DNA of 32,025 nt from Desulfobacterales bacterium. GTDB taxonomy: Bacteria > Desulfobacterota > Desulfobacteria > Desulfobacterales > JAHEIW01. The stretch spans positions 2,729,933 to 2,761,957 of the forward strand of contig CP070746.1 of assembly GCA_020348305.1 (NCBI GenBank), written 5' to 3'. Of this stretch, positions 1,160-20,092 are shown in pieces; positions within the stretch are counted from its first letter, which is position 1; every line of letters begins with the position of its first letter. The notes under the pieces are model-generated. The model ran no database searches and was not told the origin of the DNA. It saw only the letters and a program-made list of their open reading frames with translations. The translations under genes were made by a program, and so were the position numbers.

Positions 1160-3519
1160 ATAATCGGCTTCTCAGCGGCACCGATGCGGTGATTAACTGG
1201 GCGCGCAAGTACAGCCTCTGGCCCATGTTTTTCGGACTTTCCTGTTGCTTTGTAGAGGAAGCCACGGCCTTTACCTCACGCTATGATATTGCCCGCTTTG
1301 GTGCGGAAGTCCTCCGTCCCTCACCGCGTCAGGCAGATCTGCTCATCGTCTCGGGTACCGTATTTAAAAAAATTGCCCCGGTAGTATTGCGCCTCTATGA
1401 GCAAATGCCGGAACCCAAATGGGTGATTTCCATGGGCTCTTGTTCCAACTGCGGGGGCATGTACGATGTTTACAGCGTGGTTCAGGGGGTGGATCAGATC
1501 CTGCCGGTGGATGTCTATATTCCGGGATGCCCCCCAAGGCCGGAAGCTGTGTTGCAGGGGCTTGTGATGCTGCAGGAAAAGATTACATCCGAAACACCCA
1601 GCCGTACCATTTTCCATCTTAAAGGCGGAACCCAGGGAAGCCAAAAACCGATTCTTGTGGACGGTAAGACCAAATCCAGAGATCCCCGTGGACCGGGTAT
1701 GGAAAAAACCAGTATACGGGGTACCGAAGTTGTACCGCCGAGGTTCTGGGACAGTCGATCAGATGGGATGTGGACACCACCACCGCGGCAAATCGAACTG
1801 AGCGAAACGAATCAATCCCTGGCACAGAGATTAACGCATCGCTTCGGAGATGATGTCCGGCAAAGCCCAAAAACATCGGATATGCTCACAATCCAGGTGG
1901 AACAAAAACATCTCAAGGATCTACTGCATTTTCTGAAAAAAGAGTCCACACCGAAATTCCAGCGTCTGGATGATCTTACCGCCATTGACGAGAGTGCGCG
2001 ACGTGATCGCGGTCGATATCCGGATTATACCCTGGTGTATCATTTATTGTCATTTGAACCTGCTTGCAAAATTCGATTGAAGGTTGCGCTTCACGGGACG
2101 GATCCTGTCACACAAAGTGTTACCGATGTATGGCCTTCTGCCAATTGGTATGAGCGCGAAGTATTTGATTTATTCGGCATCCGATTTGAAGGACATCCCA
2201 ACCTTCGCCGAATCATCATGCCCCATGATTGGGAAGGCCACCCCTTAAGAAAGCAATATCCGGGCCGAGCTACGGAAATGCCGCCTTACACCCATGAAGA
2301 CGCCCGACACCGACAACCCCTGGACGGCGGTGTCTATGTCAAAAAGGCCAACGGTGAACACCGGCTCATCTTAAATATGGGACCCCACCATGTCAGCACT
2401 CACGGATTGATGCGCTACATCGTTGCCCTTAATGGGGAGGAAATCACCGAATTAGACATGGATATCGGCTACCACCACCGGGGGGCTGAAAAAATCGGCG
2501 AACGCCAGACCTGGCATCAATTTATTCCCTATACCGATCGAATCGATTACCTGGCCGGCGCTGCCAATAACCTGCCCTATGTTATGGCCGTGGAAACGCT
2601 GGCAGGGATCAACGTGCCCGAACGAGCTCAGGTTGTCCGGGTAATGCTCAGCGAATTTTTCCGCTTGAGCAACCATCTGGTCTGGTTTGCCACCTATGCG
2701 CATGATGTTGGGGCCATGGCGCCGAATTTCTATACCTTTCGTGAACGGGAGATGATTCTTGATATTGTGGAACTCATCACAGGCGGACGGCTGCATCCGT
2801 CATGGTTTAGGCTGGGGGGGCTGGCGGCCGATTTGCCGGAAGGCTGGAAACAGGCGGTGGACAATTTTGTAAAGATATTTCCTAAAATGCTCAACGAATA
2901 TGAAACATTGATTCGCAAAAATCCCATTTTCATAGCTCGTACCCAGGGAATCGGACGGATTTCATTGGAAGATGCCATGGACTGGGGCGTGACAGGGCCT
3001 AATTTGCGGGCTTGCGGACTGGAATGGGATTTACGAAAGAAATTTCCTTATTCGGGTTATCAGAATTTTGAATTTGAGATTCCTACCGCCAAGGGTGGGG
3101 ATTGTTATGCGCGTTATCTCGTGCGGGTGGAGGAAATGCGCCAGAGTCTGAAGATCATCCAACAGGCCGCAGCAAATATGCCTGACGGACGCTACGTCAC
3201 CGATGATTATCGCTATGTCATTCCGAAGCGGGAGGACATGCTCAAAGATATCGAAAGCCTCATTCATCACTTTATCAACGTGACGCGAGGACCTAAAATG
3301 CCCAGAGGAGAAGCCTATGCCTCTTGTGAAATACCACGAGGTGAGCAAGGATATTATGTCGTCAGTGACGGGCTCGGATATTCGTATCGTACGCGGATAC
3401 GCGGACCCGGATTTGCCAATGTGCAGGTGATGCCGCTGATGGCTGTCGGTGAGAGCATCGCAGACCTCATCGCCATTATCGGTTCGGTTGACTATATATT
3501 GCCGGATATTGACCGGTGA
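1132..3519 (+). CDS. nuoBCD: NADH-quinone oxidoreductase fused subunits B/C/D
   Basis: This 795-residue protein joins three peripheral-arm subunits that connect the NADH module to the quinone site. Residues about 20-150 are NuoB, with the N2 cluster ligands Cys38, Cys39, Cys104 and Cys133 ([22 protein letters not shown]). Residues about 155-245 look like a low-conservation linker. Residues about 250-378 are NuoC, with its signature near residues 341-376 ([25 protein letters not shown]). Residues about 410-795 are NuoD, opening with [11 protein letters not shown] and containing TDRIDYL; the Pro usual after the quinone-site His is Val here. NuoCD fusions are well known (E. coli); the B-C-D form is rarer and, from memory, occurs in deltaproteobacteria. 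The ATG at 1132 has GGAGG at 1121-1125. There is no stop or frameshift in the junctions. Confidence 0.96.
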
Positions 3520-3525
3520 GCCGAA

Positions 3526-3553
3526 GTCGGAATTCGGAATGGGGAATGCGGAA
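3526..3553. repeat. Heptad array, NNSGGAA type (nuoD-nuoE gap)
   Basis: Four consecutive 7-mers of the form NN(C/G)GGAA lie directly after the nuoBCD stop: gtcggaa, ttcggaa, tggggaa, tgcggaa. The same family occurs again at 4294-4321. The flank up to about 3590 (TTTCGTA, TTTTGGA, TCTCGGA) may be a decayed opposite arm. Confidence 0.7.
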
Positions 3554-3644
3554 ACTCCACATTTCGTATTTTGGATCTCGGATTTTTTTCGGTCTAGTGC
3601 TCGAGGCCTTATCGAAAGATGCTTCGCAAATGAGTATTTTTGGA

Positions 3645-3674: not shown

Positions 3675-3711
3675 TTTGATAAAAACCGATATACTATACA
3701 CAAACACGATA

Positions 3712-3816
3712 TCTGTCTGTCATCTGTCATTTGTCGTCTGACACCCGAAACCTGAAACCTTAAAAAACCAGAAGCCATTGATCTGAAATTTGAAACCAGA
3801 ACCCAGAAAACAGAAT
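3712..3816. repeat. Heptad array ending in the nuoE start codon
   Basis: Fifteen 7-bp units can be read in one unbroken phase. They begin with GTCATCT/GTCATTT/GTCGTCT types, pass through two exact GAAACCT units, and end with CCAGAAC, CCAGAAA and ACAGAAT. Only TAAAAAA (3761-3767) departs clearly from the pattern. The last unit supplies the first two bases of the nuoE ATG. The remaining parts of the 295-bp gap (about 3554-3644 and 3675-3711) show no gene. Confidence 0.75.
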
Positions 3817-4288
3817 GCTACCGAAAGAACTCAGAGAATCCCTTAAGGATCACATAGCAAACATCGATCATCCCAGAGAACTGGCTGTTGATGTCATGTT
3901 TACGCTGCAGGACCATTACGGCTATCTCAGTGATGAGGCTGTAAAAGAGGCCGCTGAACTTTTGGAGATGACACCTTTAGAAGTGGATGAAATCGCTACC
4001 TTTTACACGTTTGTTTATCGGGAGCCGGTTGGAAAATATGTGATTCATGTCTGCGACAGCGTCATCTGTTGGATGGACGGTTACGAATCGATAAAAGACT
4101 GTCTTTGCACAAAGTTAGCCATTAATGTGGGAGAAACGACCGCTGACGGTTTGTTCACGCTTTTACCGGTATGCTGTATCGGATATTGCGATATGTCGCC
4201 GGCGATGTTGATCAACCGGAAGGTATACGGGCATCTAAATCCGGAGAAAATAGACAGTATACTGGAGAAATTAAAGGCAGAAGCTTAA
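3815..4288 (+). CDS. nuoE: NADH-quinone oxidoreductase subunit E
   Basis: NuoE is the thioredoxin-like 2Fe-2S subunit (cluster N1a) of the NADH-oxidising module and pairs with NuoF. The 157-residue product matches the usual length. It shows the N-terminal helical part (LQDHYGYLSDEAV), the ATFYTF motif at residues 61-66, and the four cluster ligands Cys80, Cys85, Cys121 and Cys125 (C-x4-C and C-x3-C). A non-ligand Cys120 precedes the second pair. The ATG at 3815 fits the family N-terminus, but no Shine-Dalgarno is visible: the 20 bases before it are the A/C-rich end of a heptad array. Translation may be weak or use an unstructured A-rich leader. The gene lies 295 bp after nuoBCD in the same direction. 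Confidence 0.95.
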   Translation: MLPKELRESLKDHIANIDHPRELAVDVMFTLQDHYGYLSDEAVKEAAELLEMTPLEVDEIATFYTFVYREPVGKYVIHVCDSVICWMDGYESIKDCLCTKLAINVGETTADGLFTLLPVCCIGYCDMSPAMLINRKVYGHLNPEKIDSILEKLKAEA

Positions 4289-4293
4289 ACGAA

Positions 4294-4321
4294 TTCGGAA
4301 GTCGGAAATCGGAATGCGGAA
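4294..4321. repeat. Heptad array, NNCGGAA type (nuoE-nuoF gap)
   Basis: Four perfect consecutive 7-mers, all NNCGGAA (ttcggaa, gtcggaa, atcggaa, tgcggaa), lie between the nuoE stop and the nuoF start. They are of the same family as the units at 3526-3553. Independent copies with variable first bases and a fixed CGGAA core suggest one repeat class rather than chance. Confidence 0.75.
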
Positions 4322-4339
4322 AAATTTTAGGCATTTCAA

Positions 4340-5608: not shown

Positions 5609-5615
5609 CACTAGT

Positions 5616-5829
5616 CAGTTGTCAGTTGTCTGTTGTCCGTTGGCTTTGATCTCTGGCTTCTGGCCGCTGGTTTCTGGTCAAAAGAATTTGAAGAAGAGAT
5701 TCCGGCGAATTGACAATAATTTATGCGTAGCCAGAGACCAGCAACCAGTAACCAGCGACGAGATACAGCGACCAGCGACGAGAGACCGGCAACCAGGAGC
5801 AACTGACTACGGACAAGATGCAACGAACG
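5616..5829. repeat. Inverted heptad repeat element (nuoF-nuoG gap)
   Basis: The left arm (5616-5678) is nine phased 7-mers that begin CAGTTGT, CAGTTGT, CTGTTGT and change to CTGGC/CTGGT types. A non-repetitive loop of about 48 bp follows. The right arm (about 5727-5829) is some fifteen 7-mers with NNNACCA cores changing to GCAACTG/GGACAAG types, with one 1-nt phase slip near 5762-5769. The right arm is approximately the reverse complement of the left in both unit type and order, so the element is a large imperfect inverted repeat. It occupies nearly the whole 225-bp gap and ends 4 bp before the nuoG ATG. Confidence 0.8.
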
Positions 5830-5833
5830 TTTT

Positions 5834-8373: not shown

Positions 8374-9357
8374 ATGGATTGGATTATCGGCATCATAGTT
8401 CTAATTGTTAAGCTGGGACTGGTATTGGTGGGGTTGCTTCTCTTGGCAGCTTATCTGGTGTGGGTGGAGCGTAAATTTCTGGCCAGACTCCAGATCCGAT
8501 ACGGTCCGAATCGGGCCGGAAAATTCGGACTGCTGCAGCCCATAGCAGACGCTCTGAAATTAATGGTCAAAGAAGATACCGTCCCTGAGGCAGCCGATCG
8601 AATCCTTTTTCTGCTTGCCCCGGCAGTGGTGGCTACATCCGCCCTTTTGATGTTCGCCGTGGTGCCCTTTGGAAGTCACTTAACGCTTTGGGGCAAAAAA
8701 ATACCCTTGGTTATTACAGATCTCAATGTCGGTCTGCTGTATGTTTTTGCGCTTTCGTCTTTAGGCGTTTATGGAGTCGCCCTGGGGGGCTGGGCATCCA
8801 ATTCAAAATACAGTCTTTTAGGCGGCATACGGGGTGCCGCCCAGATGATCAGCTATGAGCTTGCTCTGGGCCTTTCACTGGTTCCGATTGTGATGCATGC
8901 CGGCTCTTTCAGTATTGTGGACATTGTGAATGCGCAGGCAAAGTATCCGTTTATTCTCCTACAGCCGTTCGCATTTGTGATTTTCATTGTCAGTGCCATG
9001 GCAGAAAGCAAACGCATTCCGTTTGATCTTCCGGAAGCCGAAAATGAATTGGGTGCCGGGTACCACACCGAATACAGCGGCATGCGGTTTGGACTCTTTT
9101 TTCTTGGTGAATATGTTCACATGCAGGTTCTCGGGGCCTTTGTAGCGGTCTTTTTTTTAGGAGGGTGGCGAGGTCCTCTCTTGCCAGCGCCGGTATGGCT
9201 TTTTATCAAGATCATACTGGTGGCCCTGATTATGATCTGGATCAGAGGGACATTGCCGCGCTTGCGGTATGATCAACTCATGGCCGTGGGGTGGAAAGTA
9301 CTGATTCCAGCAGCGCTGTTGAATATTATGGTAACAGGGGCAATCTTATTAATATAG
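8374..9357 (+). CDS. nuoH: NADH-quinone oxidoreductase subunit H
   Basis: NuoH is the eight-helix membrane subunit that forms much of the quinone chamber and links it to the proton channels. The 327-residue product has the standard length and signatures: VERKFLARLQIRYGPNRAGKFG (about residues 31-52), LLQPIADALKL, and the charged TM5-TM6 quinone-site loop AESKRIPFDLPEAENELGAGYHTEYSG (about residues 209-235). The ATG at 8374 starts directly at the first membrane helix, as usual for the family. The upstream signal is weak (AGG about 10 bp before). It follows nuoG after 32 bp, with no repeat array in that gap. Confidence 0.96.
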   Translation: MDWIIGIIVLIVKLGLVLVGLLLLAAYLVWVERKFLARLQIRYGPNRAGKFGLLQPIADALKLMVKEDTVPEAADRILFLLAPAVVATSALLMFAVVPFGSHLTLWGKKIPLVITDLNVGLLYVFALSSLGVYGVALGGWASNSKYSLLGGIRGAAQMISYELALGLSLVPIVMHAGSFSIVDIVNAQAKYPFILLQPFAFVIFIVSAMAESKRIPFDLPEAENELGAGYHTEYSGMRFGLFFLGEYVHMQVLGAFVAVFFLGGWRGPLLPAPVWLFIKIILVALIMIWIRGTLPRLRYDQLMAVGWKVLIPAALLNIMVTGAILLI

Positions 9358-9360
9358 TTC

Positions 9361-9607
9361 CTGTCCGTTGCATGTTGTCAGTGGCTCGTTGCTCCTGGTT
9401 GCTGGTTTCTCGTCGCTGGGCGCTGGTTTCTTGTCGCTGGTCGTTGGTTATGGATGAATCATCCTTAAATTCCAGGGTATTTAGTTTAAGTTTTTGAGAC
9501 CAAAGACCAGTTGCCAGAGACCAATAACCAGAACCCGGTAGCCAGTGGGTAGTAGCCAGAAGTCAGAGATAAAGCCAACGGACAACGGACAACAAACGAC
9601 TGACAAA
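9361..9607. repeat. Inverted heptad repeat element (nuoH-nuoI gap)
   Basis: The left arm (9361-9451) is thirteen 7-mers in perfect phase, starting with CTGTCCG, TTGCATG, TTGTCAG and continuing as TGGTTTC/TTGTCGC/TGGTCGT types. A 44-bp unique loop follows. The right arm (9496-9607) is sixteen 7-mers in perfect phase: first GAGACCA/GTAGCCA types, then GGACAAC twice, AAACGAC and TGACAAA. Read in reverse complement, the left arm shows the same progression from ACCA-core to GACAA-core units. It begins 3 bp after the nuoH stop. The rest of the gap (9608-9652) carries the nuoI ribosome-binding site. Confidence 0.85.
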
Positions 9608-9652: not shown

Positions 9653-10189
9653 ATGGCAGAAGCCCTGGAAGCAATAAAAGCATTAGCAACCGGATTTGCC
9701 ACGACATTTAAGCATCTTTTTCGGAAACCCATAACCGAGGAATATCCGGAATTCAAACGAACTTTGCCTGAGCGTACCCGGGCGCGCATCATTCTTACCC
9801 GGGATCCGGACGGCGGTGAACGTTGTGTTGCCTGTTATCTGTGCTCGGCGGTCTGTCCGGTGAGCTGCATATCCATGCAATCTGCCGAAAAAGAAGATGG
9901 CCGCAGATACGCCACCTGGTTTCGGATAAACTTTGCCCGGTGTATTTATTGTGGTTTATGTGAAGAAGCCTGTCCGACATCTGCGATTCAATTGACTGCG
10001 ATGTTTGAAACCTGCGAGCGCGATATTTTAACGCTTGTTTATGAAAAGGAAGATCTTTTGGTTGATCACGGCGGAAAAGATAAAGAATATAATTTCTACA
10101 AGTATGCGGGAGTCGTTACCCAAGAAGGCGGCAAAGGCGAGCATATCAAAGAAGATAAGCCGGTTAATGTTAAGAGTAATCTACCTTAA
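9653..10189 (+). CDS. nuoI: NADH-quinone oxidoreductase subunit I
   Basis: NuoI is the 8Fe ferredoxin-like subunit that carries clusters N6a and N6b and passes electrons to N2 in NuoB. The 178-residue product has two classical motifs: Cys58-x2-Cys61-x2-Cys64-x3-Cys68-Pro and Cys97-x2-Cys100-x2-Cys103-x3-Cys107-Pro. The N-terminus (residues 1-40) is the amphipathic anchor typical of the family. The C-terminal 30 residues are charged (GGKGEHIKEDKP) and variable. AAGGAG at 9636-9641 and CGGAG at 9645-9649 precede the ATG. This clear ribosome-binding site contrasts with nuoE and nuoG, which abut repeat arrays. Confidence 0.96.
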   Translation: MAEALEAIKALATGFATTFKHLFRKPITEEYPEFKRTLPERTRARIILTRDPDGGERCVACYLCSAVCPVSCISMQSAEKEDGRRYATWFRINFARCIYCGLCEEACPTSAIQLTAMFETCERDILTLVYEKEDLLVDHGGKDKEYNFYKYAGVVTQEGGKGEHIKEDKPVNVKSNLP

Positions 10190-19630: not shown

Positions 19631-20092
19631 TTAGGTCGTTATTTGAGTCTCCTCGTCTTTTTCATCAGCGGTTTTTTCGTCAGAGTCCTTCTCTTCAGGG
19701 ATTTTTTCGTCAGAGATAATTTTTTCAGGGCGTTTTTCTACAAGGGTTTTTTCGTCAAAGAATTTTTTTTCAGGAAATTTTTCTTCAGCTTTTTGATCCC
19801 ATGGTTTTACTTCTTTCTTCTTTTCTTTTTCAGCCCTTGCTTTTAGATCGTTATTTTCATTTTCCAAGACTTTGATCTTTTTACGCTGATGAAATCGGTT
19901 GGTGAGGCCAATGATCATTCCAATAAAGATACCGATGATCGCACAACCATAGGCAAGAATGTAAAGCGGGAAATCCTGACTATGGAGGCCAAAATAAAAA
20001 TGTAGTTTCACGAGTTGATCGTTTTTGATACCGAACGTGACTAAGAAAAGAAGCATGATAACTAGACCCGTTGCCTTAAGATAGCCTTTCAT
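19631..20092 (-). CDS. LapA-domain (DUF1049)-like membrane protein with Lys/Glu-rich tail
   Basis: The 153-residue product starts with two membrane helices (about residues 7-22 and 42-64) separated by NDQLVKLHFYFGLHSQDFPLYIL, the pattern of the LapA/YciS domain linked to lipopolysaccharide assembly in enterobacteria. A cytoplasmic coiled-coil-like stretch follows (about residues 66-95). The last about 55 residues are almost only Lys, Glu, Asp and a few hydrophobics in repeats of a D/E-E-K core. The DNA under this tail is itself an imperfect tandem repeat. AGGAG precedes the ATG. The tail is not part of the LapA family as I know it and may be a recently expanded low-complexity region. Confidence 0.7.
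   Translation of the reverse strand: MKGYLKATGLVIMLLFLVTFGIKNDQLVKLHFYFGLHSQDFPLYILAYGCAIIGIFIGMIIGLTNRFHQRKKIKVLENENNDLKARAEKEKKKEVKPWDQKAEEKFPEKKFFDEKTLVEKRPEKIISDEKIPEEKDSDEKTADEKDEETQITT
19640..19795 (-). repeat. Imperfect in-frame tandem repeat encoding a Glu-Lys tail
   Basis: On the + strand, motifs like TTTTTCGTCAGAG, TTCTTCAGG and TTTTTTCAGG recur several times with about 24-30 bp spacing. Read on the - strand they encode successive D/E-E-K blocks of the LapA-like protein. The copies differ by substitutions but stay in frame. Confidence 0.55.

Follow-up and report, generated by a model that had tools for sequence, protein, structure and literature searches.

Two nested heptad-armed repeats between nuoH and nuoI of a Desulfobacterales bacterium: probable gene-less members of a mobile family associated with PF05635 genes

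Introduction

The closest described counterparts of the structure treated here are the intervening sequences (IVS) of 23S rRNA. In Coxiella burnetii, three tandem GACAGAT heptamers lie just upstream of an S23p/PF05635 gene, inside inverted-repeat ends; the heptamers number two or three depending on the strain, and the IVS has been described as a selfish element (PMC4990558). In Xanthomonas, heterogeneous GGGAATC heptamers occupy about 185 intergenic sites per genome and form 70–75 convergent, i.e., inverted, pairs; the part of the source available to us describes them as G-quadruplex repeats and contains no link to PF05635 or to mobility (PMC4692102). Marine Beggiatoaceae and cyanobacteria harbor TAACTGA repeats, direct 7-bp repeats found in numerous intergenic regions, which set themselves apart from the elements reported below by forming identical short arrays with one inverted case only and by having been interpreted as translational control sites (PMC4679880). 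MITEs and REP/BIME sequences are likewise small, intergenic, inverted and non-autonomous, but they have no heptad arms and depend on a known transposase, whereas the companion of the elements considered here is a four-helix-bundle protein. A limited literature search retrieved no work that joins heptads and PF05635 outside rRNA.

Here, we analyzed a window of 32,025 nucleotides from a Desulfobacterales genome, the whole stretch of DNA under study, which carries mirrored arrays of 7-base units (heptads) between nuoH and nuoI. The elements to which we compare these arrays resemble the 23S IVS in their terminal inverted repeats, their tandem heptamers, the same protein gene and a unit number that varies by one. 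In contrast to the IVS, which reside in hairpins of 23S rRNA, they sit in intergenic gaps of protein operons, with many copies per genome that are mostly gene-less. The window element itself lies between nuoH and nuoI and not in 23S rRNA, and an IVS-like way of working could be ascribed to it only by inference. Neither the window nor 20 PF05635 loci contained any rRNA, and no Rfam family matched in the window.

Results

Structure of the intergenic region

The region is bounded by the open reading frame at 8374–9357 (forward strand), which we take to be nuoH in line with its initial naming, and by nuoI (9653–10189, forward strand), an open reading frame whose orthologues in the nearest relatives are 74–89% identical. 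Between them, two mirrored arms, the left one built of TGG/TTG units and the right one of CCA/CAA units, are separated by a loop of 42 bases. Both arms are strongly periodic: identity at a lag of seven bases amounts to 0.61 at 9361–9452 (mean of shuffled sequences 0.32) and to 0.58 at 9496–9607 (mean 0.295), values that were reached in 0 of 2000 dinucleotide shuffles in either case. On the forward strand, four units of the GACAAC class (9361–9388) are followed by nine units of the CCAG class (9389–9452), by the loop (9453–9494), by a mirrored right arm of the CCAG class (9495–9572) and by an outer right arm (9573–9607). No protein was recognizable in this composite, and a search with our own profile detected no remnant of a PF05635 gene in the loops of the window elements. 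The periodicity, the mirrored arrangement and the non-coding nature of the arms had all been stated in the original prediction and are borne out.

The same prediction had described a phase unbroken by a single indel, and this does not hold. The CCA and CAA cores of the left arm both occupy phase 4, while in the right arm the inner CCA cores occupy phase 4 and the outer CAA cores phase 3; the right arm thus slips by one base between its two blocks. Relative to the copy located after nuoF, this shift corresponds to a one-base deletion (GAGATCAAAG against GAGATAAAG), and the nuoF copy in turn contains a six-base unit. When the two arms of the window element are compared with each other as inverted copies, they prove too diverged for a single alignment, several registers scoring alike. 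RNA folding of the composite is better than that of shuffled sequences (z = −4.0), as would be expected of any large inverted repeat. Elsewhere in the window, positions 19658–19788 contain a 15/45-bp tandem repeat within a reverse-strand open reading frame (19631–20092); this is a coding repeat rich in lysine and glutamate and has no relation to the heptads.

Heptad arrays elsewhere in the nuo region and in the genome

The element in the nuoF-nuoG gap (5612–5830, reverse strand) and the one between nuoH and nuoI have the same unit order, with CCAG-type units inside and GACAA-type units outside, just as had been proposed. Alignment (82% identity over 87 bp; 88% over 51 bp) reveals one and the same composite, present twice in opposite orientations, and this common descent accounts for the shared block order. 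A scan for arrays retrieved further examples before nuoE, namely one of the CGGAAT class (3511–3583) and a TCTGTCA plus GAAACC pair (3711–3817) with heptads similar to those of gene-bearing elements in the same family, and another CGGAAT array in the gap between nuoE and nuoF (4273–4323).

In a sample of 832 kb, consisting of the window and 40 stretches of 20 kb, we found 58 heptad arrays compared with 0 after shuffling in blocks of three bases, which extrapolates to about 490 arrays for the genome of 6.97 Mb. The units fall into CCAG, CTGTCAT, CGGAAT, AATAACC, CGAACAT and CTGAAAC classes. Both blocks of the nuo composites occur alone elsewhere; mirrored CCAG pairs without an outer GACAAC block, for instance, are present at the sampled loci L009, L027 and L046. 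The block order is therefore no mark of a class. The search for it at other loci, which had been put forward as a check, yielded genome copies without a common order, the very outcome that had been named in advance as speaking against the claim. A class nevertheless exists, as originally suggested, and its hallmark is a pair of mirrored heptad arms, in many cases with a PF05635 gene between them.

The sample also contains a repeat family of about 200 bp whose copies are 85–89% identical between sites (L008 13743–13909, L013 1310–1505, L016 4941–5142 and L033 3046–3164). Beyond the AATAACC heptads, its members end in hairpin-like sequences (CCAATTGAG...CAATTGGG and CTAATTGAGCGATTTTCGCTCAATTAG); the complete copies have a mirrored layout, and the one at L033 is a half copy.

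The nuoH-nuoI site in related genomes

Comparison with relatives revealed that the site between nuoH and nuoI is occupied by several different elements. In two genomes of the same family (G149 and G151), only the outer GACAAC element is found, with the same number of units as in the window and differing from it by substitutions only. The site in G150 holds CCAG arms only. A genome of the same genus (G148) contains an array of the TTCGAAT class together with a decayed PF05635 gene, which was recognized by Pfam (E = 2.6e-5) as well as by our own profile, and no element is present between nuoH and nuoI in L083 and L084, representatives of two other families of the order. Occupancy thus differs among G000 and G148–G151, with whole elements either there or missing at the orthologous site. 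On contig C1 of G148, there are two nuoI copies (374289 and 697225) that are 89% identical to that of the window; next to just one of the two, a PF05635 remnant was found.

The separate presence of the outer and inner elements in sister genomes argues that, in the window structure, an older GACAAC element would have received a CCAG element in its loop, and the two-block order may have been created by such an insertion. The window no longer contains the loop that the outer element originally had. At L053 (1341–1997), a PF05635 gene is surrounded by three nested heptad classes in mirror-image order, and nesting is therefore not special to the nuo elements; the spacers between the blocks at this locus also look complementary.

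A process that preserves length in multiples of seven, as had been postulated, is needed only in part: the outer arms of G149, G151 and the window agree in unit number and differ by substitutions, and some close pairs of elements differ by exactly one or two heptad units. Fragments of a decayed gene had been named as a finding that would contradict the interpretation. For the arms, that explanation is wrong, yet a decayed gene does adjoin a heptad array at the same site in the sister species G148.

Heptad arms accompany PF05635 genes

Our presumption that heptad repeats accompany PF05635 genes prompted a test of association. In the genome under study, arrays lie within 250 bp of four of its six PF05635 matches. 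When genomes of the same phylum were included, 49 of 68 PF05635 genes had an array within 300 bp, 34 of them on both sides, compared with 25 of 136 displaced positions in the same loci (both sides, 3 of 136) and 2 of 24 genes for ParE toxins from genomes of the same phylum draw; given the abundance of heptads in these genomes, the background is above zero. Complementary flanks were found in 56 of 65 full-length PF05635 cases, in 0 of 24 ParE cases and at 1 of 140 displaced positions. The association extends to a set of 80 loci that includes Bacteroidota, Acidobacteria, Planctomycetes, Nitrospira, Paceibacterota, other candidate phyla and methanogen-related archaea (array, 60/80; complementary flanks, 57/80). 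All eight plasmid-borne PF05635 genes examined have mirrored heptads upon inspection of their flanks, seven being flagged by the array scan; two of the eight represent the same locus, which a single strain carries on two of its plasmids. About a quarter of the PF05635 genes have no detected array, and one query of phage records for PF05635 gave no match. A PF05635 gene from Xanthomonas (L235) has GGGAATC units beside it.

Among gene-bearing elements of the same family as the window, CCAG arms occur in L302 (from G151) and CTGTCAT arms in L289–L291 and L294, while none of the 20 family loci contains a gene-bearing element of the GACAAC class. The window copies have no PF05635 gene between their arms, and such a gene exists in decayed form at the same site in G148. 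Since no PF05635 remnant is present in them, we refer to the window copies as gene-less derivatives.

Several individual loci are of interest in their own right. L057 (909–1483) contains partial PF05635 fragments in tandem, with an AGAAGGG heptad block that recurs after every one of them; this represents amplification of part of an element. On an Anabaena plasmid, a very long GGTGACA/GGGAACA array lies between cas6 and a PF05635 gene (L278, 805–1130); the cas6-cas4 junction of Pseudanabaena also has a PF05635 gene, with heptads different from those of L278.

Arms and gene form one unit

In 114 gene-bearing elements, identity between the arms (0.84) exceeds that between successive units within an arm (lag-7 identity, 0.65), and each arm is therefore an inverted copy of the other, a closer relation than that of similar repeats. 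Presence and absence of the whole were observed at orthologous sites. Plasmid pNe_5 of Nostoc edaphicum carries a 494-bp stretch of arms and gene between nrdB and nrdA, whereas 13 bp separate these genes in Calothrix NIES-4105; the flanks are 85% identical. The same pattern was seen between cas6 and cas4 when Anabaena sp. 90 was compared with Dolichospermum (flanks 98–99% identical) and also in two Pseudanabaena, the empty sites in this case holding other sequence. In the clean empty site between nrdB and nrdA, 13 bp were replaced, and a target duplication is not definable; no event of movement was seen. Gene and mirrored arms thus form a unit, found either complete or not at all. Within the genome under study, a gene-less form can be traced directly: the two flanks of the L004 element recur in L016 (82% over 148 bp and 92% over 144 bp), but 261 bp including the PF05635 gene are missing there, which identifies L016 as a deletion derivative.

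The PF05635 protein and a possible heptad code

The PF05635 protein matches the solved structures 2GSC (XCC0516) and 2RLD, the former of which is a novel assembly of five four-helix bundles according to a title cited in PMC10053308. The same source names Avd of diversity-generating retroelements as a relative of this four-helix-bundle protein (PMC10053308). Avd partners a reverse transcriptase, whereas none of the reverse transcriptase genes of the genome under study is located near a heptad array. Values of dN/dS between 0.03 and 0.43 in six pairs of PF05635 genes establish that the protein is under purifying selection.

When the heptads of gene-bearing elements were aligned by rotation alone, a shared degenerate unit, A-G-(T/A)-N-G-T-N, emerged that reads inward from both ends. 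A consensus trained on one set of phyla oriented the heptads of the other in 40/49, 44/54, 35/39 and 39/44 cases. In gene-less mirrored pairs of this genome, the inward consensus was not confirmed (6/12), and the CCAG class, including the inner arms in the window, fits it poorly, with scores that are ambiguous or point the wrong way. We regard an inward heptad code as a lead only.

Discussion

The evidence from arm architecture, heptad class and neighboring elements, on which membership of the window copies rests, makes it quite probable that the structure between nuoH and nuoI is a nest of two old, gene-less and decayed members of a widespread family of mobile PF05635 elements. In its full form, such an element consists of a left heptad arm, a gene for the PF05635 four-helix-bundle protein and an inverted copy of the arm, together about 500 bp in the cleanest case. 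The protein may recognize the arms as DNA or as transcript and may, alongside host enzymes, help the element to be copied or inserted; the copies in the window would have lost their genes and then either spread in trans or persisted as relics. The published 23S IVS and the Xanthomonas heptamer repeats probably belong to the same family, the IVS being the branch that would have landed in rRNA genes.

Other origins of mirrored intergenic repeats deserve consideration. REP/BIME-like elements are moved in trans by RAYT (Y1) transposases, and the PF05635 genes might then be passengers. This genome has 19 matches to Y1 transposases, and the repeat family at L008, L013, L016 and L033 does have hairpin-like outer ends outside its heptads, but a heptad array within 1.5 kb was found at 0 of 12 Y1 loci, and the large majority of PF05635 genes do have arrays, in many phyla and on plasmids, which renders such an origin unlikely. 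Simple slippage, which would make the arrays immobile, STRR-like microsatellites, agrees with the gain or loss of single units seen in some pairs and in Coxiella (PMC4990558). It is already contradicted for the class, as it explains neither the inverted-copy relation of the mirrored arms nor the conserved gene that they enclose, nor the insertion of arms and gene as one block, and we give it very little credence for the window.

A role of the arms in the nuo operon itself would be an obvious alternative, and the position within the operon, the folding score and the presence of heptad arrays in several nuo gaps would all be compatible with an RNA hairpin selected for separating or stabilizing segments of the nuo mRNA. 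The site is, however, occupied by different elements in sister genomes and by none in two other families of the order. Moreover, mismatches between the arms of 56 gene-bearing elements are not biased toward G.U (96 G.U against 123 A.C on the gene strand, p = 0.08, in the wrong direction); there is no sign of selection for RNA pairing in these counts, and pairing selection was rejected on their basis. A selected hairpin thus appears improbable, slightly more so than movement by RAYT. Least credible of all is that the arms are what remains of a protein-coding gene of the nuo operon. The decayed gene at this site in G148 could suggest as much, but it is a PF05635 gene and not a nuo gene, and the window arms contain no recognizable protein, so that this origin is already refuted for the arms.

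We return to the mobile PF05635 family as the preferred explanation and, with regard to the host, to the absence of any sign of a function for the nuoH-nuoI element, which is probably a tolerated passenger. Its arms would be co-transcribed with the nuo operon and may undergo RNase III cleavage of the kind that occurs in rRNA, being tolerated and not used. A further-reaching interpretation, for which we see somewhat less than an even chance, is that heptad-armed PF05635 elements represent a separate class of mobile DNA that spans phyla and has no transposase or reverse transcriptase of its own, that its movement involves the reading of a degenerate, inward-pointing 7-base code (AGTNGTN) in the arms by the four-helix-bundle protein, and that it includes, as special cases, the rRNA intervening sequences and several heptamer repeats already described.

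If correct, the assignment would join intergenic heptamer repeats, 23S rRNA intervening sequences and the orphan family PF05635 into one mobile family that reaches archaea, candidate phyla and cyanobacterial plasmids. It would pose the question of how an element moves that codes only for a small helical protein, would provide PF05635 with a testable role, and would recast many heptamer repeats considered “regulatory” as relics of mobile DNA.
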